NCBI GenBank assembly: GCA_003152075.1
Contig: PLZG01000062.1
Span: 1-60,694 of the forward strand
Source: a candidate division FCPU426 bacterium
GTDB lineage: Bacteria; Oederibacteriota; Muellerivitia; Muellerivitales; Muellerivitaceae
Direction of reading: 5' to 3'
Length of the DNA stretch: 60,694 bases
Shown here: positions 3,519 to 55,290 of the stretch, in pieces
How the letters are laid out: each line of letters starts with the position of its first letter
How positions within the stretch are numbered: the first letter of the stretch is position 1
Position numbers and translations under genes: made by a program
The notes under the pieces: model-generated
Databases searched by the model: none
Told to the model about the DNA's origin: nothing
Seen by the model: the letters and a program-made list of their open reading frames with translations, nothing else

Positions 3519-6230
3519 TTATTTTTGGAAATATTCCACCACTTGCGCAAGTTGGAGTTCCCCGGCCTTGGATTCCAATTCAGCGGCCCGGGTGGGATCG
3601 ATTGTTTTTTTCAGGCCTTCTAAAAAAACTATTAATTTTTCCCGGATTTCCCACTCGGTCGCGCTATGCCGCGAAAGGAAGAAGGCGCTGAAAAAAGCCT
3701 GTTCTTTCTTTCCCTCTTCGGCTTCCAACCGGCATAAATAGTAAAGAGTCCTCATAACAACCGGAAGCGCGAAAATTTCGAAAGCCATTTTTAACGCCGC
3801 CCTCAAATTCTTCGGGGCGTTGACCCAATCCTTCTGTTCCAGGTAAACCTCACCCAAATTGCAATAAGCCACCCCCACTTCCCTCAAGTTTCCAGTTTTT
3901 TTAAACAGGGTAAGGCTTTCCTCAAAAAAGTCCAAAGCTGCTTTCCAATCCTGCCGGCTGATCGCGACTTGCCCCAAGCCATCCAAAGCGTAAGCCGTAC
4001 CCCAAGGGTTGGCGATTCCCTTGAAAATATCCCTGCTTTGGCTAAGGTAATTTTGAGCTTCCCCCAAGTGTCCCAGCAGGCATTCCAATTGTCCGATATT
4101 CGCCAGGGACCAGGCCAGGCCCCATTGATGATTGACCTTTTGGTAAATATCCAGCCCTTCCTTGTAGCTTTCCAATCCCCAAAGGCAGTTCCCCAGGGCC
4201 CTCAAGACATGACCCTGACTGTTGGCGGCCCAGGCGATTCCTTCCCGGTCCCCCATTTCCTTGAAGGACTTCAAGGCAGTTTCATAAAGTTTCCTGGCAA
4301 ACTCGTAGTTTCCAAGGGCCCAATGGATATTGCCAAGTTTTCCCTGGGTCCAGGCCACCCCGCTGCGGTGCCCGATTTCTTTATGGACCTTCAGGCTTTG
4401 AACGCAAAGTTCCTCTGCCTCCTCATATCGGCTTTGGTCAAAGGACAAGTTGACGATTTCCGTCAGGACCACCGAAAGGGAATGGGCGTCCCCCAACTCG
4501 GTGAACAGGTTTTGGCTTCGGTGAAGCTGTTGCCGCGCTTCCGTCAAGTGCCCCAGCCGCCAGTTCACGTAACCCAGGTTTTTCAAGGATAAGGCCAGAC
4601 TGGGCAGGTCCCCGTCCTTCTCACAGGAATTAACGCTTTGTTCCAATAACCTTTTCGCTTCTTGGAAACCCCCGCTGATCAGGGATAAGGCAAAGCAAAG
4701 GTGGTTCACCGCGAAGGCCACTTGTTTTCCGGAGCCAACTTTCTCAAGGATACCGAGACTCGAACGAAGCAACTCCGTGGCTTTCTCGCTCTGACCCATG
4801 GGATAGAAAAACCTTCCCTGACGGGCTATCAAATCCCCTTGGAGCGCCCATAAAGTTTTCGAGGCCCCAGGACCTTCCCTTTTAAGCATCTCTTCAAGGG
4901 TTTTGGCCCCCAGGCCGAAAATTTTCTCCCCTTCCTGGTATAAACCACGGATGTCGTAATAACAAAAGAGGGCTTCCAGAAACATTTCCATCTCCGCCTG
5001 CATCCTCTTTTCCACGGCCCAACCCCAGGCGGCCCGGATATCCTCGATTTCCCCACCCACAGCCTCAACGGCTTCCTTTTGGCGGGAACCGAAAAACCAA
5101 GCCCCCCTTTCCCTCATAAAACCGGCGTAATAAAGACAGTGTTTTTGGTGGACCTCTTCCTTGAGGGCTGGCGCCTCCTCCAGCTTTTCAACAATAAATT
5201 GTTTCAGGAGGGAATGGATCTCAAAGCGGCCGAAAGGGTTTTTCCGGAGGATGGACTTGTCCGCCAGGAGGGCCAGGTTCGTGGCCGGGGCACCCGTGAC
5301 AAACTCCGCCGCGCCCCCTTGAAAGGGGCCCTCGAAGACCGATAACTTCCGGAGCACTTCCTTTTGGTTGGCACTCAACATGTTCCAGGAATGTTCGAAA
5401 GCTGCCCTCAAGCTTCGGTGGCGCTCGGGAAGGTCGCCGTAGGTACTCACCAGGAAATCCCGGTTGCGGCGGATCTCACCCAATATTTCCTTAAGGGGCA
5501 GGGCCCTGACCCAGGCGGCCGCCAATTCCAGCCCCAATGGCATTCCATCCAGAAACTGGCAAAGGTGGATCAAATAGGGCTTGTCCTCCTCAGTCAATTG
5601 GAAATCCGGCTGGGCTTCCCGCGCCTTATGAAGAAACAACTGAATGGATCCGTATTTTTCGATTCCAACCTCATCCTCGTCCGTGGGGACCTTCAATCCC
5701 TGCACCTCAAAAATCTTCTCCGCCCGGAGACCTAAGCTCTCCCGGGAAGTGATGATAAATTTTACCTTGGGCGCTTCCTCGCGAATTTTCAGAAGCCAAT
5801 CCGCTTCTTCAAGCAGATGCTCAAAGTTGTCCAGAACTAGCAAGGTTTCCTTTTCCCGCAGGTAATTCAAAACCTGCTTTTTCATGTCCTCCTGCCCGAA
5901 GGAGGTTATTTTGAGCGCGTTTGCGATGGCCGAGCCCAGGAATTCGGAGGATTGGACCGAGACAAGGGGAACAAAGCAAACCCCGTCGGTGAACCGCGCG
6001 GCGCTTTGGGCAGCCACTTCCTGGGCCAAGCGAGTCTTTCCCACGCCCCCGGGTCCGACCAGGGTCAATAGGCGGCAAGAGGGGTCGGAAAGAAGACGGA
6101 TGATCCCTTGAAGTTCTTCCTGGCGTCCCAATAGCGGGCTGGAGTTTGGTTGATAAGTGTCCGGGGCCACAGGGAGTGGACCAGGAGATAGAACCTCATC
6201 CAATTTCAGTTTTTCTAACTCGGGAGACAT
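3519..6230 (-). CDS. STAND-type NB-ARC ATPase with TPR array
   Basis: 903 residues. An AfsR-like NB-ARC domain has Walker A GPGGVGKT at residues 59-66, Walker B LLVLDNFEHL near 130-140 and the GMPLG helical-domain motif at 230-234. From about residue 440 to 800 there are repeated TPR units of the MalT/AfsR type (for example GDREGIAWAANSQGHVLRALGNCLWGLESYKEG). Such proteins are ligand- or partner-gated switches; the AfsR and MalT relatives are transcription activators. This one starts almost at the NB-ARC domain and has no N-terminal BTAD/winged helix or C-terminal LuxR helix-turn-helix, so direct DNA binding is not evident. Being next to ppgK and the glycosidases suggests a regulatory role for the locus, which is inference. 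Confidence 0.8.
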   Translation of the reverse strand: MSPELEKLKLDEVLSPGPLPVAPDTYQPNSSPLLGRQEELQGIIRLLSDPSCRLLTLVGPGGVGKTRLAQEVAAQSAARFTDGVCFVPLVSVQSSEFLGSAIANALKITSFGQEDMKKQVLNYLREKETLLVLDNFEHLLEEADWLLKIREEAPKVKFIITSRESLGLRAEKIFEVQGLKVPTDEDEVGIEKYGSIQLFLHKAREAQPDFQLTEEDKPYLIHLCQFLDGMPLGLELAAAWVRALPLKEILGEIRRNRDFLVSTYGDLPERHRSLRAAFEHSWNMLSANQKEVLRKLSVFEGPFQGGAAEFVTGAPATNLALLADKSILRKNPFGRFEIHSLLKQFIVEKLEEAPALKEEVHQKHCLYYAGFMRERGAWFFGSRQKEAVEAVGGEIEDIRAAWGWAVEKRMQAEMEMFLEALFCYYDIRGLYQEGEKIFGLGAKTLEEMLKREGPGASKTLWALQGDLIARQGRFFYPMGQSEKATELLRSSLGILEKVGSGKQVAFAVNHLCFALSLISGGFQEAKRLLEQSVNSCEKDGDLPSLALSLKNLGYVNWRLGHLTEARQQLHRSQNLFTELGDAHSLSVVLTEIVNLSFDQSRYEEAEELCVQSLKVHKEIGHRSGVAWTQGKLGNIHWALGNYEFARKLYETALKSFKEMGDREGIAWAANSQGHVLRALGNCLWGLESYKEGLDIYQKVNHQWGLAWSLANIGQLECLLGHLGEAQNYLSQSRDIFKGIANPWGTAYALDGLGQVAISRQDWKAALDFFEESLTLFKKTGNLREVGVAYCNLGEVYLEQKDWVNAPKNLRAALKMAFEIFALPVVMRTLYYLCRLEAEEGKKEQAFFSAFFLSRHSATEWEIREKLIVFLEGLKKTIDPTRAAELESKAGELQLAQVVEYFQK

Positions 6231-12472: not shown

Positions 12473-13246
12473 TTAAAAAAACTGTATTTCATCCACGTAG
12501 AAATCCACTTTAACCGTTGTATTTGGCAAGTTATTTCCGCCTTCCGACCATTGAAGGCCGACGATTTGCTGTAAATTCGCCCCCGACAGGGTCGGAGGCA
12601 CAATGGCCGCCCCGTAATTTCCGCGGGTCATGGAAGAAAAAGGGAGGGAAACGAGCTGCCAATTGCCGCCAGTAACGCCATAGGCATACGCAAAACCATT
12701 GTAACAGGCGTTGCTTGCCGCGCTTTGATTGCAGGTTCCATTGGGCGGGATGGAGGTTTGAAGCACCGGGATGGAAAAGGACCTAACGACCGCAGTATCA
12801 TCGTTCATTACCTTAAGGTAGAACTTTATGCCGGTAAACAGGCTGGCGTCGTAAACCGAGACAGGGGCCCCATTCAAAGTGACACCGGCACTCTCGATGG
12901 GTATCCCGAATTGGATCGCTTGATAATTGTTACCTGTAGAAGGAGTAAAAACCGAACCGTTTATCCAAACGCAATGCGCCGTATTATTCGCGCCGGGAGC
13001 CACAATGAGCGGGGTCACGTTAGGACTCCCGTTGCCGTTGATGGCGCCGACCGTTTGGACATGGTTCCCGAGCCTGTTAGCCTCAGCCAAACTCGGATTG
13101 ATGATGAGCCCGCTTTCAAAATTGACAACCATCGAAGGGTTAGGTCCCGTCGAAGAGAGATAGCTCGAAGGATACTGGGTATTGCACCCAGTCCAAACCA
13201 AGGCCCCCATAAGGGCTATTAAGCAAAACTTAAAACTGGACTTCAT
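12473..13246 (-). CDS. carbohydrate-binding-like lipoprotein, paralogue of 20543-21310
   Basis: 257 residues, ATG at 13246 behind GGAG; the start overlaps the end of the upstream porin gene by 17 bases, so translation is probably coupled. Lipobox LVWTGC. The rest is one CBM11/CIA30-like jelly roll: VNFESG near the start, YDASLFTGIKFYLKV with an exposed aromatic, RSFSIPVLQT and the terminal VDFYVDEIQFF. Residue order and spacing match the protein at 20543-21310. It probably binds oligosaccharides at the outer surface and hands them to the adjacent porins, a role analogous to SusD/E/F but from a different fold family. Confidence 0.65.
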   Translation of the reverse strand: MKSSFKFCLIALMGALVWTGCNTQYPSSYLSSTGPNPSMVVNFESGLIINPSLAEANRLGNHVQTVGAINGNGSPNVTPLIVAPGANNTAHCVWINGSVFTPSTGNNYQAIQFGIPIESAGVTLNGAPVSVYDASLFTGIKFYLKVMNDDTAVVRSFSIPVLQTSIPPNGTCNQSAASNACYNGFAYAYGVTGGNWQLVSLPFSSMTRGNYGAAIVPPTLSGANLQQIVGLQWSEGGNNLPNTTVKVDFYVDEIQFF

Positions 13247-15656
13247 AGGTTAACTCCACAATGTGATCGATCAACTTGGTCTGAGTGATGGCGTTCCACG
13301 TATAGTTCCCCTGGTACCACTCATAATCCAGGTAGATGTTCGAATTACGGTTAATCTTCAAATCGCTCGACAAGAGCATTATTTGCGAGCTCCCATTGAC
13401 GGTAAATGTCGAATAGCGCCCCAAGTCGGTATTATCATACAAGTAAGAATACCGCGTCCAGTTACTTCCCCCGATTCCCGCGTCGGTCCCGTTACTATCC
13501 TGCTCGCTGAAAGAGGCCCCGACTTCCCAGACCGGTAGCACATCCGCTTTTAGGCTTCCAATGATCCAAGTCGTTGTTAGCGTTCCCAAGGCACTGTTGG
13601 TTTGCTCAAAGCGCGCGTTGGTTCCCAATTCCAAAGGCCGGTCAAGGCCAATGAAAGGCGCCAAATTGAAGGACGGCCCCACATTGATGTAGGTAAAGGT
13701 ACGGATTGGGACAATTGTCGTGCCCACTGGGCTGTCTACAGGAACAAACGCAGTTCCAGGAGTGAGAACTGAGCTATTTACTACAAGGTTACCACTGATT
13801 TCCTGGACAAAGTAAGCCGAGCCTTTAATTTTCAGGGCCTGCTCCCTAAGCGCTTTAACGTCCAATTCTGCGCCAAAACCCTGCCGGTTGGGGGTCGCCA
13901 AACCATAGGGGAAAGTATTGTCCTGGGTGCGGTCATAAAAACCATAAATACCCCCGGCCCTTGGGACGTTTTGGAGGAAATATTGGCTCCTCAGGTCAAC
14001 ATTACTGAACAAGGGGTTATTCACGGCAAAACCGGAGGTGGCAGTTACGGCATCCTGCCGGGTTTGCGCCATGGGGGAATAATAATAAGGCCCTACGTTC
14101 AAGACATTGAGGGTTAATTTGGATTCGCCCAATTGAAAATAAGGCCCGGCCATCAATGCAAAATCCTTGCTGATTTTAGCATTATCTATCTTATCGTCCT
14201 GGAAACTGCTGAAGGCGTATTCCATCGCCCCGCCGAAATAAAAGTCACCGCCCAATCCCACCTTGATGTCAGGCCTCACGCTGCCCGTGAGATATTGGTG
14301 CGCCCAAGTCGAGGGATTGAACTGTCCGTAAGGCGAACCTGGTGTTTGGGTGTTAAGTGGTTCGTCGAGGATGATTCCATAGGTATCCACGCCCAGTTGG
14401 AAGGAGGTTCCGCCCAAATACCACTTTTGAGTCTTCAATCCGCCCGTGCCGCCGAAAACCCAATCGGTAAATTGGCCGGGGCCAAAAAACCAACCCGTGT
14501 CGGTAAAACCGTTTCGGATCATATTGGCAAAAGCGGAACCATGAATTTCGCTGATCAGACCCCCGTCCGGCCACATTGCGGCAGTCCCAATTTTTAAACC
14601 GCGGAATGGCCAATCAGGTTCATGGTTTAAAAAGCTCTCATACTTGGCCCAGTCATCCTGCCGGGCGTAAGCCTCAGGCAAAAAGGCCAAATCAAGGTTA
14701 TTCCGGTTCCAAAGCGTAAGGGGAGTATAAGATTCTCCGAAATCCCCTACGGTGGCCGACATCCAAGTTGGGTTGAATTCCATGCTGACCCGTCGAACCG
14801 TAAATACCGGATTGTCATTAGGCGTAACGGTAGACCCTAGCCGGAAGATGGAATCCCAGCTGATTTCTTTCGAAACCGTCCCCACTGGGTTAAGGTCCAA
14901 AAAGGCGGAGGTCGTCCGAGCCCCGGGATAAGGTAGCGCCACTCCGCTGCTGGCCGTGTCAAATTGATTAGACATGAGGTTGATCCGTCCAACTCCATGG
15001 ATCGCGACCGTGGGGAATTGCTCAATACCCTTTATCCTCTTGCGAAGGTCATATTGGTCGGCGTCCACGTTGTCTGCACGGTCCCGAACCGCTTTTAACC
15101 TGTCCTTAACCGCTTTGAGCTCGTATTGATAGGCCTCGTCCAGGCTATGGAGGCTTTCCGCCGCCTTGGCTAAACCGGCCGGGGACTCGTCAGGCGTGGC
15201 CTGGGCCGAAGCCTTCTCCGAACCAGGGGCCTGAAGCTCATCGCTTGAGGATGCCGGGGGCACCTGTCCATCCGCTGGCGGAGGAGGTATTTCCATATCA
15301 GCCTGAGCCACTACCAACTCGTCATATTTCCGATGGGCCTTCAGGATTCTTTGGACGACGTCATATCGGGTTAAAGGGGCCTCGGAGTCAGTCACCGTCA
15401 ACAAGCCAGCCTTGGCTAATTTTTTCAAGTGTTTATAAGTAACATCCGTCGAGGGAACGGTATCGAAAAGATTGTCCGATGCGGCTTGTACGATTGATAT
15501 AGTTCCAAATAAGAACAGTACCAACAAAACTGCCATTCTGAGGCGAACTTCGCCGAAGAATCTATGTTTCAAGGCAAAACAAAGATCCTTCGCTTCGCTC
15601 AGGATGACAATCCCGGAATTGAAAATGGGTTTGAGTGTTTTAGAAGCTGACTTCAT
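13230..15656 (-). CDS. SLH-coiled-coil outer-membrane porin, third of three
   Basis: 808 residues from the ATG at 15656, which has GGAGG seven bases upstream and overlaps the end of the preceding porin by 17 bases. After the start, residues 16-40 (IVILSEAKDLCF...RFFGEVRLR) are the translation of a dispersed repeat; the real hydrophobic signal core begins MAVLLVLFLFGT at residue 41. Then come an SLH-like module (DTVPSTDVTYKHLKKLAKAG), a Pro/Ala linker, a coiled coil (residues 165-215) and a barrel of about 590 residues ending ELTYEVQF. SLH-porins anchor to the cell wall and form diffusion channels. An internal start at 15536 is possible but lacks a clear ribosome site. Confidence 0.75.
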   Translation of the reverse strand: MKSASKTLKPIFNSGIVILSEAKDLCFALKHRFFGEVRLRMAVLLVLFLFGTISIVQAASDNLFDTVPSTDVTYKHLKKLAKAGLLTVTDSEAPLTRYDVVQRILKAHRKYDELVVAQADMEIPPPPADGQVPPASSSDELQAPGSEKASAQATPDESPAGLAKAAESLHSLDEAYQYELKAVKDRLKAVRDRADNVDADQYDLRKRIKGIEQFPTVAIHGVGRINLMSNQFDTASSGVALPYPGARTTSAFLDLNPVGTVSKEISWDSIFRLGSTVTPNDNPVFTVRRVSMEFNPTWMSATVGDFGESYTPLTLWNRNNLDLAFLPEAYARQDDWAKYESFLNHEPDWPFRGLKIGTAAMWPDGGLISEIHGSAFANMIRNGFTDTGWFFGPGQFTDWVFGGTGGLKTQKWYLGGTSFQLGVDTYGIILDEPLNTQTPGSPYGQFNPSTWAHQYLTGSVRPDIKVGLGGDFYFGGAMEYAFSSFQDDKIDNAKISKDFALMAGPYFQLGESKLTLNVLNVGPYYYSPMAQTRQDAVTATSGFAVNNPLFSNVDLRSQYFLQNVPRAGGIYGFYDRTQDNTFPYGLATPNRQGFGAELDVKALREQALKIKGSAYFVQEISGNLVVNSSVLTPGTAFVPVDSPVGTTIVPIRTFTYINVGPSFNLAPFIGLDRPLELGTNARFEQTNSALGTLTTTWIIGSLKADVLPVWEVGASFSEQDSNGTDAGIGGSNWTRYSYLYDNTDLGRYSTFTVNGSSQIMLLSSDLKINRNSNIYLDYEWYQGNYTWNAITQTKLIDHIVELTYEVQF
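15532..15609. repeat. dispersed repeat (ATTCTGAGG...CAGGATGAC family) inside a porin gene
   Basis: About 78 bases with imperfect inverted ends: GCCATTCTGAGG on one side and CTCAGGATGAC on the other, with the inner pair GAAGAATCT / AGATCCTTC. On the minus strand it is read in frame as part of the 13230-15656 gene and gives the peptide VILSEAKDL, a known coding signature of this repeat type. It lies between the start codon and the hydrophobic core of the signal peptide. Confidence 0.8.
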
Positions 15657-17808
15657 AGGTCAACCTCCATATCTCGTCCGTGCGGTCGTAACCGGGGATG
15701 TCGGCCCACTGGTAAAGGTTCATGAACCAATCCCCATGTACTTCAAAGGTCTTACTGATGGGAAGTTTGAACCCTACCGCCCAGGAAGTGCGGGTGATAT
15801 TGAGGGGTTGGTAAGCATAAGTTCCAATAGACCCACTATCCAGGTAAGTCGCGTAATTGGCCAGCGAGGAAGGTGTCCCTCCATTCAGGGTATATTCACT
15901 CCCGGTTGATTGGGCCTGTTCAAAAGCGCCCGTCAGTATCAACCCTTCGAAAAGGGGAACCCCAGGAAAAGGTCCGGCGTCAAGACTGACAATGACTGTG
16001 TTCACCGTGAAAGGAGCAACGCCCAAGCCCAGATCGGTCGTTTGATGTTTGAAATCTCCGGATACCGACCAGGTTGCGAGCGACCCTTCCACAAGCTTGG
16101 CCAAATCAACCGTCAAGGCTCCCTCAACTCCACCGAAAGTCCTGGCAACCGTGGTATTAACAATGCCATCTACCGGCACAAACGAGTTGCCCGCGGTGGT
16201 TAAAACATAGTCGGGTTGGATTTCATGCATGTTAAGGTCGACAGAAACTTGAGGCTTGAGCCAGCCATCCTTTCCGATATCAGCCGTGAAACCAACAACA
16301 AATCCCTCACGGTTGGGGGTAGCATCACCATAAGGAAGGATATTCTCCCCCAGCCTGTCGTAAGGGGCGAAAGCGGGCTGGTTGACCCCTTGGAATACAT
16401 AGTTGTTTAAGTACCCCGGCAGCCCGTCATCGAGGTTTTGATTGGTGGAGAGATACCCAACCGTTCCCACCGCGGGGGTGAACCGGTTGGTCTGGGCACC
16501 AGGCGAGTAAAAATAAGCCCCATTATTTAGGTATTTCAACGTGAGATGGGCTCCCTGGTAATTAACGGACCCATTGGTAAGTAAAGCCCAGTCCTGGATA
16601 ACACTGCCGGGGTTTTGAATATCGTCCTGATAACGGCTGACGGCGTACTCGGTGGAAGCGGTTAGGTTAAAATCCTTGTCGATGGGCGCGGTGGCCTTCG
16701 CCGAAAGACTGCCGATATCGTATCTTTTTCCATAAGTAAGTGTAAGGTTCGGGATATAGGGAACGTTGGTGGTACCTGTATCATCCCAAAGCAAAAGCCC
16801 GGTTCCCTTGATTTCCAGATTATTGTCAAAAAAATCCAAGGCGGCCTCACTTCCGGCGTAATCGTTGGCAAAACTATATTGGGTGGCTGATTTCATTTCC
16901 CCCGCCATAGCCTGGGCATGGGCAGAACTTAAGACTGGATTCTTGGCCAGGTCCTGGTCCGAGGAAACCTCAAAACCCCTCATATGCCATTGGGGGCCGT
17001 GATCCATGTAAACCAGTTCCTCGATATCCTTTCGGGTTCTGTGATAGGAAGTCGGTTCAATCATCGTATAAACGGGTATTTCAGAATTCCATAACGTCAA
17101 GGGCGTGTAGTTTCTATAAAAATCCCCCCCTGTAAGGTTGGCCACCTCATTGGCGTCGGAAAGCGAAATCCACCTCAAGTCGAAACTAGGTTGAATGGGG
17201 TCGGCGTAATAAAGCCCGATGGTCCGGATCATGCGGAGGGTGGCGTTGAAAAGGACAAAGGGCACCGGAACGCTCCGCAAGTTCATATCCCCGAACATGA
17301 CGTCGTTGTAATCCAACGGGCTATAAACGGCGCTTTTTCCGAAACCCCGGTAGGTGTCGAAATAAGCCCGGGAATAACCCCCCGCTTCCGTTCCCGATTG
17401 TTTCAGGTATTCCCTCTGCAAAGACTCGAATTTTTCGTCGCGGCGGCCCTGGTCGAATATACGATCTTCCAGTTTGGCCACATCCACGTCCATATTTGAA
17501 AGCTCCCCTTTGAATTCTTCCACCAGGGTTTTAAGGCTTTCAACGGACTTCTCATCCGCCGTGTTATTGGTGGAGCCGGCTTGGGCCATGACATAATTGG
17601 AAGCGACAGCGGTAAGCTGGGCAACCTCCAAATTGGTCAAACTGCTTGTCGGCTTGGCGGGTTTGGGGACAACCCCCGCCTCGACTAAGGCATCCAGCCG
17701 CGAGTTTATCCAACCGTCGCGCGTGGAGGTCGCCAACGAACCATGGTCCGCGAAGGCGGGCAGGGACATTACCATCGACAATATGAGGAATAGGATTTTT
17801 CTTTTCAT
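15640..17808 (-). CDS. SLH-coiled-coil outer-membrane porin, second of three
   Basis: 722 residues from the ATG at 17808, which gives a standard signal peptide (MKRKILFLILSMVMSLPAFA); an in-frame TTG at 17859 would add 17 charged residues and has its purine run too close. An SLH-like segment (STRDGWINSRLDALVEAGVVP), a Gln/Glu coiled coil (about residues 75-130) and a large barrel ending RLTYEVSF follow. The C-terminal Phe is typical for BAM-inserted barrels. Its 3' end contains the start codon of the next porin. It probably forms an oligosaccharide channel. Similar domain order in the two neighbours points to tandem duplication. Confidence 0.75.
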   Translation of the reverse strand: MKRKILFLILSMVMSLPAFADHGSLATSTRDGWINSRLDALVEAGVVPKPAKPTSSLTNLEVAQLTAVASNYVMAQAGSTNNTADEKSVESLKTLVEEFKGELSNMDVDVAKLEDRIFDQGRRDEKFESLQREYLKQSGTEAGGYSRAYFDTYRGFGKSAVYSPLDYNDVMFGDMNLRSVPVPFVLFNATLRMIRTIGLYYADPIQPSFDLRWISLSDANEVANLTGGDFYRNYTPLTLWNSEIPVYTMIEPTSYHRTRKDIEELVYMDHGPQWHMRGFEVSSDQDLAKNPVLSSAHAQAMAGEMKSATQYSFANDYAGSEAALDFFDNNLEIKGTGLLLWDDTGTTNVPYIPNLTLTYGKRYDIGSLSAKATAPIDKDFNLTASTEYAVSRYQDDIQNPGSVIQDWALLTNGSVNYQGAHLTLKYLNNGAYFYSPGAQTNRFTPAVGTVGYLSTNQNLDDGLPGYLNNYVFQGVNQPAFAPYDRLGENILPYGDATPNREGFVVGFTADIGKDGWLKPQVSVDLNMHEIQPDYVLTTAGNSFVPVDGIVNTTVARTFGGVEGALTVDLAKLVEGSLATWSVSGDFKHQTTDLGLGVAPFTVNTVIVSLDAGPFPGVPLFEGLILTGAFEQAQSTGSEYTLNGGTPSSLANYATYLDSGSIGTYAYQPLNITRTSWAVGFKLPISKTFEVHGDWFMNLYQWADIPGYDRTDEIWRLTYEVSF

Positions 17809-17873
17809 TCGTCTTTTCTTAATTAGCCTTTCACACTTTTCCACTTTTATACTTTTCAACTTCCTTTAGCCTT

Positions 17874-20468
17874 TCAAAAATGAAACAAAAAATAACAGTA
17901 ATACTGGTCCGCTTGGTAATTGTTCACGGGTACTATGATGTCGTTGTAAATCAGGTGCTTATACCGCAACTCCAGCTTTCCTCCGCCCCAGGGAACATCG
18001 CAGGCCAGCCCCGCGCCGATGGAATCGGTGCGCCAGTTGATGAGAGGATAGGTGTAGTCGGATTTCCAAACTTCCAGGCCGTAATCCCCGGACAAATTCA
18101 CGTTTTTCAGGACCTGGTACATTAATGTACCTTCGTAAACGATTTGGCTGAAAAGATTGGGGATATTCGCCAGCGTTTGGCCAGGGCGGTTCGGGTCGGG
18201 CAGTGTGGCAGTTGCGCTGTCGGTGACACCCGAAATATCGTGATTGGTATAGAAGAAGGCTCCATAAAATGGCTCGGCAATGCTCAGCATCTTGTTGAAC
18301 TGAAACTTGGTCGTGAGGGTGATGTAATTAAAGGTCTTTAGGTTATCCAGGTTGGTGTAGACGTTGTGGCCGTTTGCGTCCTTTTGGATGACCCCCGGGG
18401 AAGAATAAACCGGGAGGATAAAGGGAACCCTCGTGGTGTATCCCATCCCCACGTTCATGTAATTTTCTGTTCCCGATCCGACGCCGGCGATTCCAAAACC
18501 ATCATTACGGAGATTACTGATGTTCGTGGCGGTGGCCGTTCCCATCGGGTGCAATCCCCCGTACCCGCCCCAAATGTTGTTCCCCCAAAGGCCCGTGTCA
18601 TCCGGATAAAAAGCCGTGATGAGGTTATAGCTTTCGATCACGTTGTGGCCCACTTCATCGGTGATCATCCGGTACTCCGTGTTCGAGGCCACGTCGAAGT
18701 TGATGATGATGTCGTCGAAAATACTTGGAAGAAATTTGGTCCAACTTTCCTGGCGGCCTTTCCATCCCAGGTTCCCCCTCCATCCATGCCGGTCGCTGAT
18801 CATGTCGTTCACCATTCCGACGAAACCGTAGTAATAGTCGGTGTTTGCGGCGGCCGACCCGCCGGCATAACCAAAACGGCCCATGTTAAATCCCGCCATG
18901 TAGGCCGTGCCTTGAATATTGGCATAATTGTCACTAATGGCCGTGTAGTAAAGGGTAAAGGGATAAATGGAAAGGGCGGCTTGGCCTGCTGGGGCCTCAT
19001 AGGCTTCGGGATTAGGATTGCCCGTTTCAATGCCCGTGAAAAAGTGGCTCATGCCCCCTTCAACACTCAGAAAAAAGGGCTTTAAATCAAAACCCAGATC
19101 GGCTTCATAATTTTTCAGGTCCATAGCCGGGGTGTTAGGCGGAGTGATTCCGAAATCCTCATTTACCCAATAGGTGGCCAGGGAGGTCTGTAAAAAGCCG
19201 TTTAGCCATGGCTGGCTATATTTGACGCCTTCTTCCCAACGATGGATTTCCGGAAGGTAGGTATTGGACCTTCCCATGCGCCCAAAGAGGAGGGTCATCT
19301 TGGCGTCTTTGCTAACGAGGGGCAGATTGCTCCCCATCAGGTAAATCCCGTCGAAAACAATGCCGGTGTTGGACTGGTTGAGGTAAGAGAGGGTACTGGG
19401 AACGTAACCCAGGTTGGTCATGAAATCGTCCCAATTTTTCTGATTTTTGTCCGTGGAGTATTTCTTAATGTCGAAAGGATCCTCATACCTCAAATTGCTG
19501 AGCGGATTACCACGGGTGAAGTCACCCAGGTCCGTATCCGCTGTGTAATCTTCCACGGCCACGGTCGTGTCCCAATGGCCCAACTTCCCGTCCATGGCCC
19601 AGTTGATCTTGGGGCTGAAAAGGTAAATAGAAACCGGGCTGGAGGATGCGTTGGAGTCGTACACATAGCCGCCGAGGCCCAAACTGATGGAACCCTTCCC
19701 CCCAAGGTCACTCCACATGCCTAGGTTCACCTCATTTATAGCCCTGGTCGCGCTGACTTGAGTGATGCCGGAAACGTTAATGTTTTCAAACCTTAAATCG
19801 GAAAGAGTATTGAAATTGGGGGAGCCTGAGGATTTGTTCGACTTTTTGAAGGCGGAATCGACATCATCTTGAACAGCCTTCAGCTTTTCCAGTTCATTCT
19901 CACGGTCCTTAAGGCGTTGGTCATCCAAGCTCAATCGCGTCCGCAACATGGCCGCTTCCTCGCTTAACTCTTTCAACAATTCCTCAATTTCGTTTTTGGC
20001 GGCGTTCTGATTCATAACAGGAGCAGGCGCGGCAACAGGCAAAGCGGGAGCTTTTAAAGATGGAATAACAACAGGTTTAGAAGTAGGCATTGCTAGAACC
20101 GGCACAGGGGTAGAAGTGGGCACTGGAGCTACGGCCGCAGGAGCCGGCAGGCTCGGGGATTCAAGAGAGGGAACAACTATATGGGGAGTTGAAGTTGGTA
20201 CGGCAATGGGCGCTGTTATTTTGGCTTTGGCTTTTTCAACATAAAAAGCCAGCTCCAACCTTGTCACAACCTTACCTTCGTCCAGGACGGTTTTATCTTG
20301 CTGGTCCAATAGGCCGTAATCACCCAATTGCTTTACGCGTTGATAAAGTTTCTGGTCCGAGGTGACATCCTCAAAGGGGTCGGCCCAAAGGCGTACAACC
20401 GCCAAGCTCCCTATGAGAAGAAAGCAAAGAGAAAATGAAGTAACCAAGGTTTTAAGTCTTAAACTCAA
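17874..20468 (-). CDS. SLH-coiled-coil outer-membrane porin, first of three
   Basis: 864 residues from a TTG at 20468 with AGGGG upstream. Signal peptide MSLRLKTLVTSFSLCFLL...WA, SLH-like module DPFEDVTSDQKLYQRVKQLG (residues 31-85), a Pro/Val/Ala linker with the repeated VPTSTP motif (85-150), a coiled coil (155-205) and a barrel ending YYCYFLFHF. Like its two neighbours it combines a wall-anchoring N-terminus with a pore, the design of SLH-porins in other Gram-negative lineages. It is the first porin after the lipoprotein at 20543-21310, with 74 bases between, so one transcript is likely. Confidence 0.75.
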   Translation of the reverse strand: MSLRLKTLVTSFSLCFLLIGSLAVVRLWADPFEDVTSDQKLYQRVKQLGDYGLLDQQDKTVLDEGKVVTRLELAFYVEKAKAKITAPIAVPTSTPHIVVPSLESPSLPAPAAVAPVPTSTPVPVLAMPTSKPVVIPSLKAPALPVAAPAPVMNQNAAKNEIEELLKELSEEAAMLRTRLSLDDQRLKDRENELEKLKAVQDDVDSAFKKSNKSSGSPNFNTLSDLRFENINVSGITQVSATRAINEVNLGMWSDLGGKGSISLGLGGYVYDSNASSSPVSIYLFSPKINWAMDGKLGHWDTTVAVEDYTADTDLGDFTRGNPLSNLRYEDPFDIKKYSTDKNQKNWDDFMTNLGYVPSTLSYLNQSNTGIVFDGIYLMGSNLPLVSKDAKMTLLFGRMGRSNTYLPEIHRWEEGVKYSQPWLNGFLQTSLATYWVNEDFGITPPNTPAMDLKNYEADLGFDLKPFFLSVEGGMSHFFTGIETGNPNPEAYEAPAGQAALSIYPFTLYYTAISDNYANIQGTAYMAGFNMGRFGYAGGSAAANTDYYYGFVGMVNDMISDRHGWRGNLGWKGRQESWTKFLPSIFDDIIINFDVASNTEYRMITDEVGHNVIESYNLITAFYPDDTGLWGNNIWGGYGGLHPMGTATATNISNLRNDGFGIAGVGSGTENYMNVGMGYTTRVPFILPVYSSPGVIQKDANGHNVYTNLDNLKTFNYITLTTKFQFNKMLSIAEPFYGAFFYTNHDISGVTDSATATLPDPNRPGQTLANIPNLFSQIVYEGTLMYQVLKNVNLSGDYGLEVWKSDYTYPLINWRTDSIGAGLACDVPWGGGKLELRYKHLIYNDIIVPVNNYQADQYYCYFLFHF

Positions 20469-30786: not shown

Positions 30787-33700
30787 TTAGTGAAGGATGA
30801 GGACTTTAACTGTTTGGTGGCCTACCAAATTGCGGACTGGGTCCTTGGCGTCAACCACCGCGATGTAGATGCCACTGGCCAGCCCCGAGGCGTTCCAGTA
30901 AACGTTGCTTTGGCCCGCTATGCCATCCAGGGTGGCTACACGCTCCCCTGCAACAGTGTAGATATAGGCCCTTAGGGTGAGGTTGGTCGTTGAGGCGGCC
31001 GTGAAGGTCGTCCCTGTGACGCCTTTTTTTGCGTCCAAGATGTTTGGCTGGGCCAAAATCAGACTAGGGCTGTCGGACCCCTGCACCGAGACCTGTTCCG
31101 TTAGCGTCGTGGTTCCGCCCTTGCCATCCACCGAGTGCACTTCCACGAAATATTGGCCCGTCTGCACGAAGGTTCCGCTGTCGCTTCTTCCGTCCCAGAT
31201 AATCGTCGTTCCATTGCTCAAGATCACTCCCAGTTGATTGGGTGTCCCGCCCACAGGGTTGTTGCTTGGTTTTATGACCGTCGTGGACAACTGAACTCCC
31301 ATTACCGCCGACTTGCCAGGGTCATCCACAAAGGCGTAAAGGTGCTTCACCACCTCGCCTGATTCGTTGTAGATAAGGACTGTCGCCTTGTACAGCGACC
31401 GGCTCACCATTACCTGCTGGGTCACACTGCTCACCACCCCCGTCGAGTTTATGCTGTCCACCTTGACGTGATAAATCCCGTTCGGAGAGGGGTCCCCGCT
31501 TGCGCTCGTTCCGTTCCAGGAGCCGATCAGCGTGTTCTTGTAATAGATATCTACCGCGTTATTAGCCCCGTTCAGACTCGTAATGACATCCCCGGAGAGG
31601 GAGATACTGTCGATGGGCTGGGAGAGTAGCTCTATCTTGATGGTCTTCACCAGTTCCCCGGCCTCGTTATAGACCCCCACACTGACCGTGTATTGGCCAA
31701 TGACAGTTACCGTCACCGCCGAGGAAAGGGTAATCCCTGAGTAGGTCAATTGGGCACCGTTGATGATATTCGTCCCGCCGGGCACCAGGTCGTTTACTTT
31801 CGTCACATAGTTCAATTGATAGGTTCCGAGTGCCAAAGGAGGCAGGTTCCAGGTCAGCTGGGAGAGTGTAGGGTTATAAGAAGGGCCAGGCAGATTAACC
31901 GGAACATTTATGCCAGGCCCGACGTAGGTCACGTTAGTCGGCAGAGTGTCGGTGATAACAGCCCCGTTTACACTGTTCCCCGTGACAGTCACGTTAAGGG
32001 TATAGGTCAGGACGTCGGCGGAGTGGACGTTCCCCGAGGGGTTCACCGACTTGCTGAAAGACACGTTCATGGTGGGGGTGAAGGTAGGGGTGAAGGTGGC
32101 AATAAAGGTGTTGGTAGAAGTCTTAGAAGGGGTTGGTGTGGGACTATTGGTAGGAGTCTTGGTGGGAGTAGGTGTCGGGCTATTAGTAGGGCTATTGGTG
32201 GGTGTGAAGGTGTTGGTAGATGTCTTGGTAAAGGTCTGGCTGTTGGTATTGGTGGGCGTGTTCGTAAAGGTGGCTGTAGGCGTATTGGTATTGGTGAATG
32301 TGTTAGTGGCGGTATTAGTGTTGGTAGAGGTATTGGTCCAGGTGGCAGTAAAGGTATCGGTGGGAGTGTTGGTACAGGTAAAACTGTTGGTTGAGGTATT
32401 TGTGTTCGTAAATGTAAAGACGGGCGTCCATGTGTTGGAAGGTATATTTGTGAAGGTATTAGTCGAAGTGGGCGTCGGCGTAAACGTCGACGTATTAGTA
32501 GGAGTATTGGTCTTGGTAGGCGTATTGCTTGGAGTGTTGGTGATGATAGGAGTATTGGTGGGGCTATTGGTAATCGTCGGGGTGTAGGTGTTGGTGGGCA
32601 TGTTCGTAAAGGTGCTAGTGTTCGTATTGGTATAAGTCGGGGTATTAGTAAAGGTGGGCGTCGGCGTAAACGTCGACGTGTTCGTGAAAGTTGGTGTACT
32701 TGTATTGGTATTGGTCTTAGTGGGTGTGTTGGTGGGAGTATTGGTAATAAGCGGCGTGTTGGTGGGTGTGTTGGTAATGGTCGGCGTGAAGGTATTAGTG
32801 GGAGTATTGGTCTTGGTGTTGGTCGGGGTGGAAGTAGGCGTCGGCGTAAACGTCGATGTATTCGTGTTGGTAAAGGTAGACGTCGACGTGTTCGTGTTAG
32901 TGGGCGTATTGGTCTTAGTCAGAGTGTTTGTAGGCGTATTCGTGAATGTGTTTGTATTAGTCGGAGTATTCGTGGACGTCGGGGAAAACGTCGACGTATT
33001 CGTACTGGTAGAAGTTGAAGTGTTAGTCGAGGTATTGGTTGAGGTGTTGGTGCTAGTGGCCGTGAAAGAGTTGGTCGCGGTATAAGTCCTCGTGAAGGTG
33101 CTTGTCGAGGTAGGTGACAAAGTATTAGTGGGCGTATTGGTCGGAGGCACTGTTCCCGTCCAGGTGTTAGTCGGGGTCGGGGTAATGGTAGGAGTAAAGG
33201 TATTCGTCGCCGTGAAAGTCCTGGTCGACGTATTGGTCGAAGTACTAGTGGAGGTGCTGGTTGAGGTATTAGTGGACGTGTTGGTAGACGTAAAGGTCTT
33301 CGTAAATGTGTTGGTGGGGGTTGCCGTAGCGGTGTTGGTGGACGTCGAAGTAGAGGTGCTCGTGGAAGTCGAGGTGGAAGTGCTGGTTGAAGTAGCAGTC
33401 CTGGTAGCTGTGGCCGTGAAGGTCCTTGTAAAACTATTAGTGGAAGTAGATGTCGACGTGGAGGTGCTCGTTGAGGTTGAGGTAGAAGTGGCCGTCTTGG
33501 TCGCCGTAGCCGTGAAGGTTCGTGTGTTAGTCGGGGTCGAGGTAGAAGTGCTTGTGGAAGTCGAGGTTGACGTGGATGTACTGGTTGAGGTGGCGGTAGC
33601 CGTGGCCGTAAATGTGCGGGTAGGAGTGGACGTACTGGTGGAAGTTGACGTGGAGGTGGATGTAGCCGTGGCTGTCGACGTCGCGGTAAATGTCCTGGTA

Positions 33701-36132
33701 GCGGTGCTCGTTGAAGTGCCCGTCGAGGTCGACGTCGAGGTGGATATGCTGGTGGAAGTTGAAGTTAGGGTTAAGGTACGGGTTGCGGTCGCCGTGGGAG
33801 TCGTGGTTGAGGTGCTTGTGGATGTGGAAGTGCTGGTGGAGGTTGAAGTGTTGGTCTTTGTAAATGTCAAAGTCGAGGTAAGCGTATTGGTGAAGGTAGG
33901 GGTGGAGGTCCTGGTTGGCGTGGGTGTGGGGGTGGGTGAAGTGGTCGGCACCGGCGAACAGGGATTGTTGTTGGTGGTAAAGCTTACCGTGTTGGAGGTT
34001 ATGGGTCCAATACCCGTGGCCGTCAAAACCGCGTCATTGGGGACCGTGCACTCGGTGCCAGAGCCATAACTTTGAATGGTCAGAGTGACTGAATCACAAA
34101 AGCCATTGCCCGGGAAACCGATGGGATAGGCCCAGGAAATAGCCTGGGATCCCCCGAAAGCGTTGGGGCCATTGGGTGTGTTATTGAAACCATACCCACA
34201 TCCGGGCGTTCCATCGAACCACTTCTTGTAGCAAATGTTGGTCATGAAGAAAGTGTTATTGCTGGCGGTGTTGAAGAGGCTGTCTCCCACGGTCACCGGC
34301 CCCGAAACTGGTCCCCCTGTGTTACAAGTCTTCACCACGTAGGTCACTGGCTGGTTGGGGGCAACATTCGAAGGGGCCGTGCCCAGGAAGGATTTGGTGA
34401 TATTGAGGTTAGACGGCGGAGTCGGGGAGGGACAAACTGTCGTAACATTGAATGTCTGGCGATAATAAATGGAAGCGAAGGCCAACTGATCCCCGGTAAT
34501 GTTAGTCGGGTCGGTGTTGGTTCCGTTTCCACCGTCAAGGTCCGCCCCAATGGGCGGAAGGAGTCCTCCGTTAATTGGATCGTTCGCGGGCAGAAGCCAA
34601 AAAGCGGGTGGGTAAACCACGGTCACGGGAGCAGCCCATCCTGATGGAGCGTAAGTGGGGTCCCACCAGGTGACCGAACTGCTGGGCGGGGGCGGACCAT
34701 TGGGGACTGGCTGGTTGTAAATCTGGACATTGCCGCTGCTGCTGGTGACATAGGCGGTGGAACCGTTTGACATGCCGATAGAAAGGGCCCAGGTGGCCCA
34801 ATTGTAATGGAGCGCCAGGTTGTAGGCTTGCACCGCGATGACGTTGGCCCCCACCACCAGGTCGGCGACGGGTACCGAGACGCAAGGCACGGGAGGGCTG
34901 GCGTAACCCACGCCGACAAATGTGGTGGAACCGGATATCGTGATGGGATGGCCGTTGACCCAGACCATGGCGTTGTCATCAGCCCCCACGCAGATGTTCG
35001 CGGAGGTCATCGAGCATCCCCCGACGATGGGGGTGGGCGACCGCGTGGCGGTGGCTGTATTGGTGGGTGTGGCGGGTGTGTTGGTCTTGGTGGACGTATT
35101 GGTCGCCGTGGGAGAGGCCGGGGTGTTGGTGTGGGTAGCCGTAAAGGTGCGGGTGAATGTATTGGTCGGGCCGGGTGTCCAAGTGGGGCCGCAGGGAGGA
35201 AACTGGACGCTGGTGGTTCCAAGTGGGTTCGTGGTGCCAACCGAGGTGGGAGCCACAAAAGAACAGGCGGTTACGGGCCCTATCGTGACCGAGTTGCCCC
35301 TCGCGTCGGTGACGATAAAGTTATAGGGGCCAGCGCCCATGTTGTAGTTAGCGGACTTGAGTCCCCAGTACTCGGTGTTCCCCGCGTCGGACGTGATCAA
35401 GGACAAACTGGTGTAGGCGCCACCGTTGTCGCTGACTTGAACCGCGACGATAGGAAACAAGGAATCCAGGAATTGGATAGGGGTATAGAAGGTGTTACAT
35501 CCACTTTTAAATTGATAGGCGATATTCCCCGAGGGATTGTTTTGTGTCAGAAGGCTCAATGGGCATTGGGTGTAGTTCCAGGTGATGTTGATTTGGCCGA
35601 CCGCAGTGGCGGCCAATGCGCCGAAGGCCTGGGGCGCGAGGTCAAGTTGGTGAACATTGCAAGGCGCGGGACATTGGTCAACCACCATGACCGTGACCGC
35701 ATTGCCGTTGGCGGTGTTTTGGACGGCGATACAAGCTCCGCAACCCCCTCCGTTGTTGTAATCGGACCAATTGAGGGCGACGTAATAATTGGGGTCGTAA
35801 GCCCCGGCCTCAAAAGCGCAATTACCCGTACCGGGGGTCGTGTTCAAGCTCGTGTACCAGGTCCCGATGCCCGAAAAGACGGTAGGGGGATTGGTAGGAC
35901 AATATTTTGAGGTCCCCACCGTATCCGTTTGGGCCCGAAGCCCGGAAGTGCTCATAAAAACGAAAACCGTGAATGCCCAAGGCAAAAACTCCAGCCATTT
36001 CCCATATGGCTTTCTGGCAGAGGATTGGAACAAAAAGAGAAAAAAATTGAACCGGTTCAATTTTTGAACACAAAAAAACCCCGCGCGAAGCGCGAACCCA
36101 GTCCCATCTTTATGTTTGATTTGACTCAACAT
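30787..36132 (-). CDS. giant secreted protein with N-terminal bacterial expansin and TNTPT/STST repeats
   Basis: 1781 residues if begun at the ATG at 36132; residues 1-33 cross a terminator-like hairpin and a palindrome, so a TTG at 36033 (n-region, then WAFTVFVFM...LRAQ) is a likelier start. Residues 75-190 are an expansin D1 double-psi barrel: NGGGCGACI and [15 protein letters not shown], with both acidic residues of the EXLX1 site (Asp152, Asp164). Residues 200-285 are a CBM63-like D2 in which the aromatic platform is replaced by FY and YW. Then come a Thr-rich linker, a jelly roll (about 375-520), DUF11, a 620-residue TNTPT/STST repeat (about 731-1354), DUF11 and FlgD-like modules. Expansins loosen cellulose-xyloglucan contacts without hydrolysis. 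Confidence 0.8.
32085..33935 (-). repeat. Thr-Asn-Ser-Pro coding repeat in the expansin protein
   Basis: About 1.85 kb of low-complexity coding DNA. The promoter-distal part codes TNTPT and TNTST units, while roughly 33,180-33,900 codes long alternating Ser-Thr blocks separated by TRTFTATAT-type spacers. The antisense Val-rich frames are mirrors, not genes. Confidence 0.85.
36042..36095 (-). terminator. 24-bp perfect palindrome and terminator-like hairpin before the expansin gene
   Basis: 36042-36065 is a perfect palindrome (AAAAATTGAACC and its complement) flanked by T-rich sequence on the minus strand. Just upstream on that strand, CGCGC-TTC-GCGCG plus GU pairs is followed by seven T (about 36072-36095). 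Both lie within the first 33 codons of the longest reading frame. They probably terminate the substrate-binding-protein transcript before the expansin gene. Confidence 0.5.
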
Positions 36133-53014: not shown

Positions 53015-55204
53015 CTATCCTACGTGGGATATGGCCGTGACGGGTCTCATCCGGGCGGCCTTGAACGACGGTATCAACGACACCAAGGTGCAGCAAAGGG
53101 TGATCACCAGCGCCCCCCCGATGATTTTGACGGGGTCCAGGGCGAAATGCAGGCGGTTGGACATGGTGAATATCTGGGCACCCTCGGGAACCGGTATTTG
53201 CGCCGCGTCCAGCCCCAACGATAACAGGCAACCCAGCACCGCTCCCGCGGCCGTTCCCATCAAGCCCAGGCAAAAAGCCTCCATGACGAACATCACCATG
53301 ACCGAACCGCGTTGCATGCCGATGGCCCGCAAGGTGCCGATCTCCCGGGTGCGCTCGCGGATGGCGATCCACTGCACGTTCATCAGGCCCACGGCGATGA
53401 TGGCCAGGAGGATGCTGACCAGGGTCCAGGTCAGGGCGTCCAGGGCCGAAAGGGTCCAGCGCATGGGCCCGATCTCGTCCTGCCACTGGGTCAGGTCCAG
53501 GCGCAGGCCGGTCCAGTCCTGGTGGTCCATGGCGTCCAGCTTTTGAAAGTAGAAGCCGGGCTCATCGTCCATGACGCTGTAACCGGCCGCCTCCAAGGCC
53601 TGGCGCAGCAGGGCCACGTCCTGGGGCGCCCGATCCAGACCCTTCAAGTAGAGCTGCAGGACGCCGCTGCTGCCGGGCTTGGACTGATAGAGGGCATCCA
53701 GGCTGGCCGTGGGCACGAAGAGATTGAAGCGGTTCAGGGGGCCGATGTCCTGCACCAGGCCCACCACCCGCAGGTCCACCGCATTGGCCATCCCGCGCAG
53801 GGTGGGGCCCTCCAGGCTGACCTCGTCGCCGAGGCGCAGGCCCATCTTGCCGGCCAGGCTGTTGAAGATCACCGTGGTCCCGGGCTGGGTGAGCGCCAAG
53901 AAACTGCCTTGGGCCATGGCCAGGGCGTGCGGCAGGGCCGGCTCGCGCAGGATGTCGACGGAGCGGACATTCACCTGCTGGGCCCCGTGCGGCCCCACCA
54001 GCTTGACCCAGGCCCGGCCCCGGGCCACCTGGTAGTCCAGGTCCGGCAGGGTGGCGGCCACCAGGGCCTGCAGCTTGGCGGCGTCCTGCAACAGCGGGAC
54101 GGTCCGGCCGGGGCCGGCCTTGAAGTAGCCCGCCACGTTCACCTGGCCGGTGCTGATGGCGGTCGAGGAGGCCAGCATGGACGCGCGCACCCCGTCGCTG
54201 AGGCAGCTCAAGAGGGCCAGCAGGCCGCTGACCGCGGCGATGGCCCCGCCCAGCAGCAGGATCAAGTTCCACAGGTCGCCCAGTTTTTCGGTGTTGAGGA
54301 AAGGCGCGCGCGCCGGGGCCCCGCCGGCCGCGGCCATGGCCTCGTTCACTTTTTCGTCCATGCCCGTGTAGGCGCCGGGCACCGGGGTGTCGACCGGATG
54401 GGCCTGGGCCGCCGCAGGAGCTGCGGCAGCGGGGGCCTGGTCCGTGGCATGGGCCAGCAGGGGCAAGGCCATCAGCAAGAGGGCCACCGCCGCGGTCTTG
54501 ACGGCCGCCTTGGCCTTGGACTTGGCCGCGGGCTTGTCCTCCACGCCCAGGTCCTCAAGCACCTCCGGCCGCTGGCGGCCGATGCTGTAAAGGGCCCACC
54601 CAGTGAAAAAGGCCTCGCCGATGGAAAGCGGTGTCTGCACCGGCAGGTAGCCGGCGTAGATGACCTTGAGGTAGCCGATCAGGTCCATCTTAGGCTGCGG
54701 CACCACCCAGGCCAGGTGCGCGGCCAGGGTGAAGCCTGCGGCCACATAGGTGAGCACGTCGCCGACCAGGCCCGCCAGGGCCCCGGCCCAGAGCCGGCTC
54801 AGCCCGGCCCTGCGGGCCAGATGGTAGGTGGCCCAGCCGCTGCAGCCGCCCACCACGCCCAGGGTGATGGTGTTGGCGCCCAGGCTGCTGAAGCCGCCGT
54901 GGGCGAAGAAAGCCGCCTGCAGGAAAAGCGCCAGGCAGGACAGCAGGATGGTCACACCCGGCCCCAGCAGGATGGCGGCCAAGGGCGTGCCGCAGGGATG
55001 CGAGCAGGTGCCGGCGTAGGACGGCAGCGGCACCAAGGAGACCAGGAAGACGAAAGCGCCGGCCATGGCCAGCAGCGGCTTGCGCTGGGGCTTGGTGGCC
55101 ACGAACCGGTTGGTGGCGTGCACGCCATAGGCCACGGCCGTGGCGCCCAGGCCCAAGGTGATGGCCATGCTCGGGCCGGTGAGGATGCCTTCGGATATAT
55201 GCAT
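53015..55204 (-). CDS. CbiM/CbiN-like metal permease fused to FtsX/MacB-type permease
   Basis: 729 residues from the ATG at 55204 (GGAG upstream). This start is fixed by the CbiM rule that the mature chain begins Met-His-Ile: MHISEGILTG, with His2 and the SHPCGTPLAAILLGP loop as Co/Ni ligand sites. Residues 1-215 are CbiM; about 235-320 resemble the CbiN-like part of fused NikMN proteins (ARAPFLNTEKLGDLWNLILL). From about 325 the chain runs straight into an FtsX/LolC-E permease: LSDGVRASMLAS, a periplasmic domain, IRERTREIGTLRAIGMQRGS and a final FKAARMRPVTAISHVG. No CbiQ/CbiO or LolD-type ATPase gene is nearby. The LolA-like gene follows by 7 to 112 bases. The fusion may be real or an assembly joint. 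Confidence 0.75.
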   Translation of the reverse strand: MHISEGILTGPSMAITLGLGATAVAYGVHATNRFVATKPQRKPLLAMAGAFVFLVSLVPLPSYAGTCSHPCGTPLAAILLGPGVTILLSCLALFLQAAFFAHGGFSSLGANTITLGVVGGCSGWATYHLARRAGLSRLWAGALAGLVGDVLTYVAAGFTLAAHLAWVVPQPKMDLIGYLKVIYAGYLPVQTPLSIGEAFFTGWALYSIGRQRPEVLEDLGVEDKPAAKSKAKAAVKTAAVALLLMALPLLAHATDQAPAAAAPAAAQAHPVDTPVPGAYTGMDEKVNEAMAAAGGAPARAPFLNTEKLGDLWNLILLLGGAIAAVSGLLALLSCLSDGVRASMLASSTAISTGQVNVAGYFKAGPGRTVPLLQDAAKLQALVAATLPDLDYQVARGRAWVKLVGPHGAQQVNVRSVDILREPALPHALAMAQGSFLALTQPGTTVIFNSLAGKMGLRLGDEVSLEGPTLRGMANAVDLRVVGLVQDIGPLNRFNLFVPTASLDALYQSKPGSSGVLQLYLKGLDRAPQDVALLRQALEAAGYSVMDDEPGFYFQKLDAMDHQDWTGLRLDLTQWQDEIGPMRWTLSALDALTWTLVSILLAIIAVGLMNVQWIAIRERTREIGTLRAIGMQRGSVMVMFVMEAFCLGLMGTAAGAVLGCLLSLGLDAAQIPVPEGAQIFTMSNRLHFALDPVKIIGGALVITLCCTLVSLIPSFKAARMRPVTAISHVG

Positions 55205-55290
55205 GATACTCGTCTCCAACTGAAAATTAGTTTCAATCATAGTATGCAGCCCGTCGGTCCCTGTCAATCCCCGCCGGACTTGAATGAAAA

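Follow-up and report, generated by a model that had tools for sequence, protein, structure and literature searches.

An expansin-headed giant protein from an FCPU426 bacterium, one of six on a shared stalk-and-tail chassis with a probable SprA-type export route

The stretch of DNA analyzed here (the window; 60,694 bases, the whole of contig PLZG01000062.1) comes from a bacterium of candidate division FCPU426, which is placed within Goldbacteria (PMC7031533), and encodes on its minus strand a protein of 1,781 amino acids, P0001, with an expansin, the kind of domain that loosens plant cell walls, at its N-terminal end and approximately 1,465 residues beyond that head. The original prediction had described both the bacterial expansin and the giant size, and each was borne out. 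The modules of the open reading frame (ORF) are as follows:

30787..36132, minus strand: whole ORF P0001, the expansin-headed giant protein, 1,781 amino acids (open frame and family matches)
36080..36096, minus strand: terminator-like hairpin with a T run, within the annotated ORF start (simple consensus scan, weak)
35932..36060, minus strand: probable signal peptide region, ending ...SGLRA ahead of Q68 (by eye; like form in paralogs)
35560..35874, minus strand: expansin domain D1, a double-psi beta-barrel, approximately residues 87-191, including D152 and D164 (DPBB_1, Barwin; BsEXLX1 alignment)
35245..35529, minus strand: expansin domain D2, CBM63-like, approximately residues 202-296, with F215-Y216 in place of W125-W126 (NF041144 to residue 284; Foldseek)
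34438..35016, minus strand: jelly-roll-like beta-rich module, approximately residues 373-565 (by eye; no Pfam family)
33949..34410, minus strand: DUF11-like module, approximately residues 575-728 (by eye; Pfam not significant)
32071..33945, minus strand: Thr-rich TxT stalk, residues 730-1354 (composition and spacing; degenerate DNA repeats)
31705..32070, minus strand: second DUF11-like module, residues 1355-1476 (alignment with homolog L043)
31072..31704, minus strand: FlgD-Ig modules, residues 1477-1687 (Pfam FlgD_ig, 40 bits, two stretches)
30790..31071, minus strand: C-terminal beta-sandwich, residues 1688-1781, a candidate type A sorting domain of the type IX secretion system (T9SS) (TIGR04183 20.1 bits, cut-off 23; model pLDDT 95.5)

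The expansin part does not end at an assembly break: the frame has no internal stop, and the gene is interior to the contig, more than 24 kb from both ends. The start is doubtful because the terminator-like hairpin sits inside the ORF at 36096-36080, so the ATG annotated as the start, at 36132, may be too early and the true start may lie further downstream; the terminator-type consensus scan yields equally many sites in shuffled sequence. In-frame TTG codons occur at 36060 and beyond, leaving the start codon unsure. A hydrophobic stretch ending SGLRA-Q68, read by eye and alike in the paralogs, suggests that the mature protein probably starts near Q68.

The Thr/Ser repeat of about 620 residues and the FlgD-like modules described earlier were both recovered, the former as a TxT stalk of 625 residues with one short interruption (composition over residues 746-1385: Thr 45%, Ser 16%, Asn 12%, Pro 8%). 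The repeat units are degenerate in DNA, being 71-84% alike, which makes the collapse or expansion of a perfect repeat unlikely. The proposed DUF11 content stands in part: the Pfam model is not significant in P0001 itself, but in homolog L043 (genome G029) it reaches significance (41.6 bits) in the copy aligned to P0001 residues 1355-1476. The stalk may be glycosylated; PMT glycosyltransferases (PF02366) were considered as evidence of this and set aside, as they are present in the genome but equally in the E. coli and B. subtilis controls.

The assignment of the head rests on family and fold tests that agree. NCBIfam NF041144 (expansin_EXLX1) matches residues 89-284 with 107.3 bits (cut-off 100; profile positions 2-176 of 194), and D1 is matched over cut-off by both Pfam DPBB_1 (33.4 bits) and Barwin (25.6 bits). 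By sequence search the closest solved structures are two-domain expansins, with 7wvr at the top (E 5.5e-20), and a profile built from 20 homologs finds 7wvr at E 1.8e-28. When residues 69-315 were modeled with AlphaFold (mean pLDDT 71, pTM 0.63), the eleven best PDB matches of the model in Foldseek were all two-domain expansins, plant and microbial (E 1e-13 to 2e-10); against 9ms5 and 7wvr the value was E 1e-13 over approximately 210 columns, with a TM score (query) of about 0.6. P0001 thus shares the D1 double-psi beta-barrel followed by D2 with BsEXLX1 (YoaJ, PDB 2bh0) and with the proteins from Clavibacter (4jcw), Talaromyces (7wvr) and Streptomyces (9ms5).

Function in expansins has been tied by mutagenesis and structures to D82, D71, Y73, T14 and the aromatic platform W125/W126/Y157, and of these D71 and D82 matter for loosening rather than for D2 binding (PMC5072189). 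We aligned the heads to the BsEXLX1 sequence of PDB 2bh0, which agreed letter for letter with our reference. The original prediction held that both D1 acids are conserved and that the D2 platform is changed from WW to FY, and the alignment agrees on both counts: D71 and D82 correspond to D152 and D164 in P0001 and are invariant in all 20 heads of the family described below, while W125-W126 corresponds to F215-Y216. The T12 equivalent is retained, K119 corresponds to K209 (kept in 17 of the 20), and the Y73 position is occupied by Cys, as it is in the Clavibacter and Talaromyces proteins. The W126 position is aromatic in 19/20 heads, and W256, which lies near the Y157 position, is invariant. 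The platform as defined in BsEXLX1 is not found in P0001; we do not hold this to exclude EXLX1 membership, because the platform varies in accepted members (it is Y-W in 7wvr). By the family and fold tests, P0001 is headed by a true two-domain expansin of the EXLX1 type whose D2 face is altered.

P0001 is not alone. The genome (4.10 Mb, 114 contigs) encodes six expansin heads on giant proteins, P0001 included: two adjacent ones on contig C66 (1,743 and 1,980 amino acids), two on C91 (1,087 and 1,446 amino acids), and one on C56 that is cut by the contig end inside its stalk. A short RlpA-like protein of 188 amino acids is encoded separately on C69. Of 45 genomes searched from the phylum (candidate division FCPU426/Goldbacteria), seven carry expansin heads, 20 in total and each matched by NF041144, so recurrence of the architecture in relatives, for which the original prediction had proposed a search, was borne out; all but one of the seven are from the family of the P0001 organism, of which eight genomes were searched. 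Identical DNA identifies two of these genomes, candidate division FCPU426 bacterium nzgw216 (same genus as the P0001 organism) and Centralia_MAG_561 (same family). In a tree with three characterized expansins and a Fibrobacteria protein the 20 heads form one clade (support 95/92, with long outgroup branches), and the nearest to P0001 is a head from the same genus that is 79% identical. The complete order of head, stalk and tail is found in P0005 and P0006 of the same genome and in L015 and L043 of other genomes. Occurrence of the architecture outside FCPU426 was assessed by one pattern-limited scan.

Two side observations were made among these sequences. The Fibrobacteria bacterium AD312 encodes a 342-amino-acid expansin-like protein (L018:3513-4538) in which, by eye, a lipoprotein-like N-terminus is followed by a Ser-rich linker, which could be another means of holding an expansin at the surface. 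Separately, the contigs L015-L017 (JAJPJW) of Centralia_MAG_561 are recorded as Proteobacteria, a label that looks wrong, as their sequence is the same as that of a genome in the family of the P0001 organism.

The stalk and C-terminus form a chassis common to many different heads, and for this reason the expansin-on-stalk architecture is a family feature and not one fusion. A search of the genome with the C-terminal module of P0001 (approximately 390 residues) gives 24 matches, of which about 15 span nearly the whole module. The heads on this chassis include expansins, jelly-roll-like modules, an NHL propeller and others without a family; many of these sister proteins have heads that look non-enzymatic. 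One protein of this chassis is encoded beside P0001:

25965..30260, minus strand: neighboring giant protein P0002, 1,431 amino acids, with another head and a stalk of the same type (its C-terminal module and that of P0001 share 72% identity)

Besides expansins, this common delivery vehicle bears a GH9 cellulase and an NHL propeller. The cellulase (L059:193-3039, contig C97), the only GH9 found, is built like the expansin proteins, with a TxT stalk and, at the C-terminus, a YPNP-type tail resembling that of an expansin paralog on C91; the propeller, of NHL/teneurin type, heads a protein with the same C-terminal chassis on contig C13 (L065:766-3639).

The question of how such proteins might leave the cell was addressed through the components and cargo signals of type IX secretion, a system usually placed in Bacteroidota. 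The genome contains a gene for SprA: P0003, an ORF of 1,988 amino acids on contig C39 (L012:3311-9274), matches the SprA/Sov model TIGR04189 with 203.3 bits (cut-off 200), and this model matches 40 of the 45 phylum genomes at E <= 1e-10, mostly under the curated cut-off; the SprA_N model (PF14349) by itself gave sub-threshold matches only. PorV (PF19572) is matched on contig C79 (35.3 bits, cut-off 27). The type A sorting domain model TIGR04183 (Por_Secre_tail) finds 54 places in the genome, 24 of them individually over cut-off, and P0001, P0005 and P0006 are among the 54; at E <= 1 it finds the tails of 11 out of 13 proteins that have an expansin head or the chassis, and the tail of P0006 scores 23.6 bits, over the cut-off of 23. 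The last 94 residues of P0001 are modeled as a beta-sandwich with pLDDT 95.5. We read this as a SprA-type T9SS whose accessory parts are divergent or missing, and on sequence criteria P0001 is likely to be a T9SS type A cargo. Of the surface tether first proposed, display at the surface stays likely, but the probable route can be described more closely: the extreme C-terminus, beyond the FlgD-like modules, looks like a T9SS type A sorting domain, and the genome has a SprA translocon.

Taken together, we consider it probable that P0001 is a surface-displayed EXLX1-type expansin, exported through SprA, whose head sits on a Thr-rich stalk and opens polysaccharide for hydrolases. The protein would be made with a Sec signal peptide, and the SprA-type translocon would recognize the C-terminal beta-sandwich and pass P0001 across the outer membrane. 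It would then be retained at the surface, where the stalk of approximately 600 residues could hold the expansin head off the cell; D2 would bind glucan chains and D1 would loosen non-covalent contacts in whatever the real substrate may be. Such loosening would open polysaccharide fibers to surface or secreted hydrolases, for example the GH9 cellulase of the genome with its like stalk and tail. Genes for GH31, GH2, a fucosidase and sugar-binding proteins surround P0001 in the window, and these surroundings, together with the cellulase on the chassis, fit a surface-displayed attack on polysaccharide.

Several results weigh against this picture. The confidence of the head model is moderate; the W125 position is aromatic in just five of the 20 heads, and no clear equivalent of Y157 is seen, its position not being conserved in the 20-head alignment. 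Cellulose binding by these heads may therefore differ from that of known expansins. On the export side, the tail of P0001 scores 19.7-20.1 bits with TIGR04183, under the cut-off, and Foldseek with the tail model returned generic Ig-like folds only, which is uninformative and lends T9SS no support. The C25 peptidase (PorU-type, PF01364) has no match in the genome, and none in the control genomes either; GldM (TIGR03517) has no match at E <= 1, and GldL, GldK and GldN were not searched for.

The degenerate platform, with Gly, Ser, Asp or Thr at the W125 position in 15/20 heads, would also suit an expansin-fold adhesin that no longer loosens walls and instead binds carbohydrate, keeping the cell attached to a glycan surface, the stalk serving as a spacer. 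The long adhesin-like stalk and the non-enzymatic-looking heads on many sister proteins speak for such a role, which we nevertheless regard as unlikely, since the equivalents of D71 and D82, which matter for loosening and not for D2 binding (PMC5072189), are invariant in all 20 heads. Release of the expansin, free or slime-bound, after SprA-type export and removal of the tail is improbable: in known systems a sortase removes type A sorting domains, and released T9SS cargo is well known (PMC10202324), whereas no C25 peptidase was matched here (in a search with no positive control) and a 600-residue stalk with several Ig-like modules would make more sense if anchored. It is very improbable that the head acts on the peptidoglycan of its own or other bacteria in the manner of RlpA-type double-psi beta-barrel proteins; Pfam DPBB_1 also takes in RlpA and lytic enzymes, and certain expansins in the PDB carry a peptidoglycan-binding label, but the paired D1 and D2 score over the EXLX1 cut-off and take the two-domain expansin fold, on which grounds an RlpA-like cell-wall role was rejected, and the genome has its distinct RlpA-like protein on C69. 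That misassembly created the architecture by joining a repeat protein and an expansin gene was rejected as extremely improbable: TxT repeats do interrupt the assembly in another place, with contig C56 stopping within a stalk, but complete genes of the same plan occur in P0005, P0006, L015 and L043, and the stalk DNA is degenerate in an open frame far from either contig end.

The surface-displayed expansin proposed here has both likenesses to and differences from known systems. Microbial expansins have been viewed as small secreted proteins with an unclear role in bacteria, or as modules on single enzymes. The known two-domain forms have approximately 200 residues, whereas the expansin of P0001 heads a chain of 1,781 residues; D71, D82, T12 and K119 of BsEXLX1 have their equivalents and two-domain microbial expansins lead the Foldseek list, while the W125-W126, Y73 and Y157 positions depart from BsEXLX1 as set out above. 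In the modular bacterial expansins known so far, the expansin is fused to GH5, carbohydrate-binding (CBM), discoidin or dockerin modules, and in Clavibacter CelA (GH5-CBM2-expansin) and the dockerin-expansins of Clostridium clariflavum the expansin is, as in P0001, part of a larger polysaccharide-active protein (PMC5072189). Unlike these fusions, P0001 has no glycoside hydrolase, CBM or dockerin; it has a stalk and a T9SS-like tail, and occurs as one of six paralogs in its genome. With the type A cargo of Bacteroidota (TIGR04183) it shares a C-terminal beta-sandwich, a GxY core and a basic hydrophobic end, in a genome with SprA and PorV; it differs in a tail that stays under cut-off, in extra FlgD-Ig modules before that tail, and in that GldM and a C25 sortase were not found. 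From the same candidate phylum, Candidatus Cellulosimonas argentiregionis (Goldbacteria/FCPU426) was captured on cellulose and has tested cellulases (PMC7031533); that paper has no mention of expansins, and type IX secretion appears in a reference title only. A review of T9SS functions mentions expansins in general terms only (PMC11205867). No T9SS-exported expansin was found in the literature searched, a scope that most subscription journals fall outside, and a T9SS in FCPU426/Goldbacteria is not described there.

Elsewhere in the window, four consecutive minus-strand ORFs at 12473-20468 (257, 808, 739 and 864 amino acids) have ends that overlap or nearly touch and no Pfam match over cut-off; they possibly form an operon. 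A STAND-type protein with NB-ARC (40 bits) followed by TPR repeats, here in a bacterial candidate phylum, is encoded at 3519-6230 (minus strand), and a single ORF at 53015-55267 (minus strand) shows the unusual pairing of a CbiM cobalt-uptake domain (141 bits) with an FtsX-like permease domain (83 bits). Toward the end of the contig (52000-60694), over its final 7-8 kb, the G+C content rises from about 0.52 to 0.64-0.68, with ordinary transporters among the genes; this end was possibly transferred or misassembled.

The six-fold family, the common chassis and the SprA route are of more interest than the single gene. A wider reading, which we put forward tentatively and with somewhat less than even confidence, is that in this family of FCPU426/Goldbacteria expansins serve as a multi-copy surface tool kit, with up to six per genome and differing D2 faces, exported by a SprA-type T9SS apparently without a recognizable GldM motor or C25 sortase, on an interchangeable chassis held in common with a cellulase. 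The natural D2 variants are available to test the purpose of the aromatic platform, and the findings add to the case for SprA-based secretion and its cargo tails being general features of FCPU426/Goldbacteria, beyond the Bacteroidota. Up to six expansins on long, probably T9SS-exported stalks suggest a use of wall loosening that depends on the cell being held against its substrate, and the six-fold family points toward wall loosening from the cell surface as an entire strategy of a little-known phylum.

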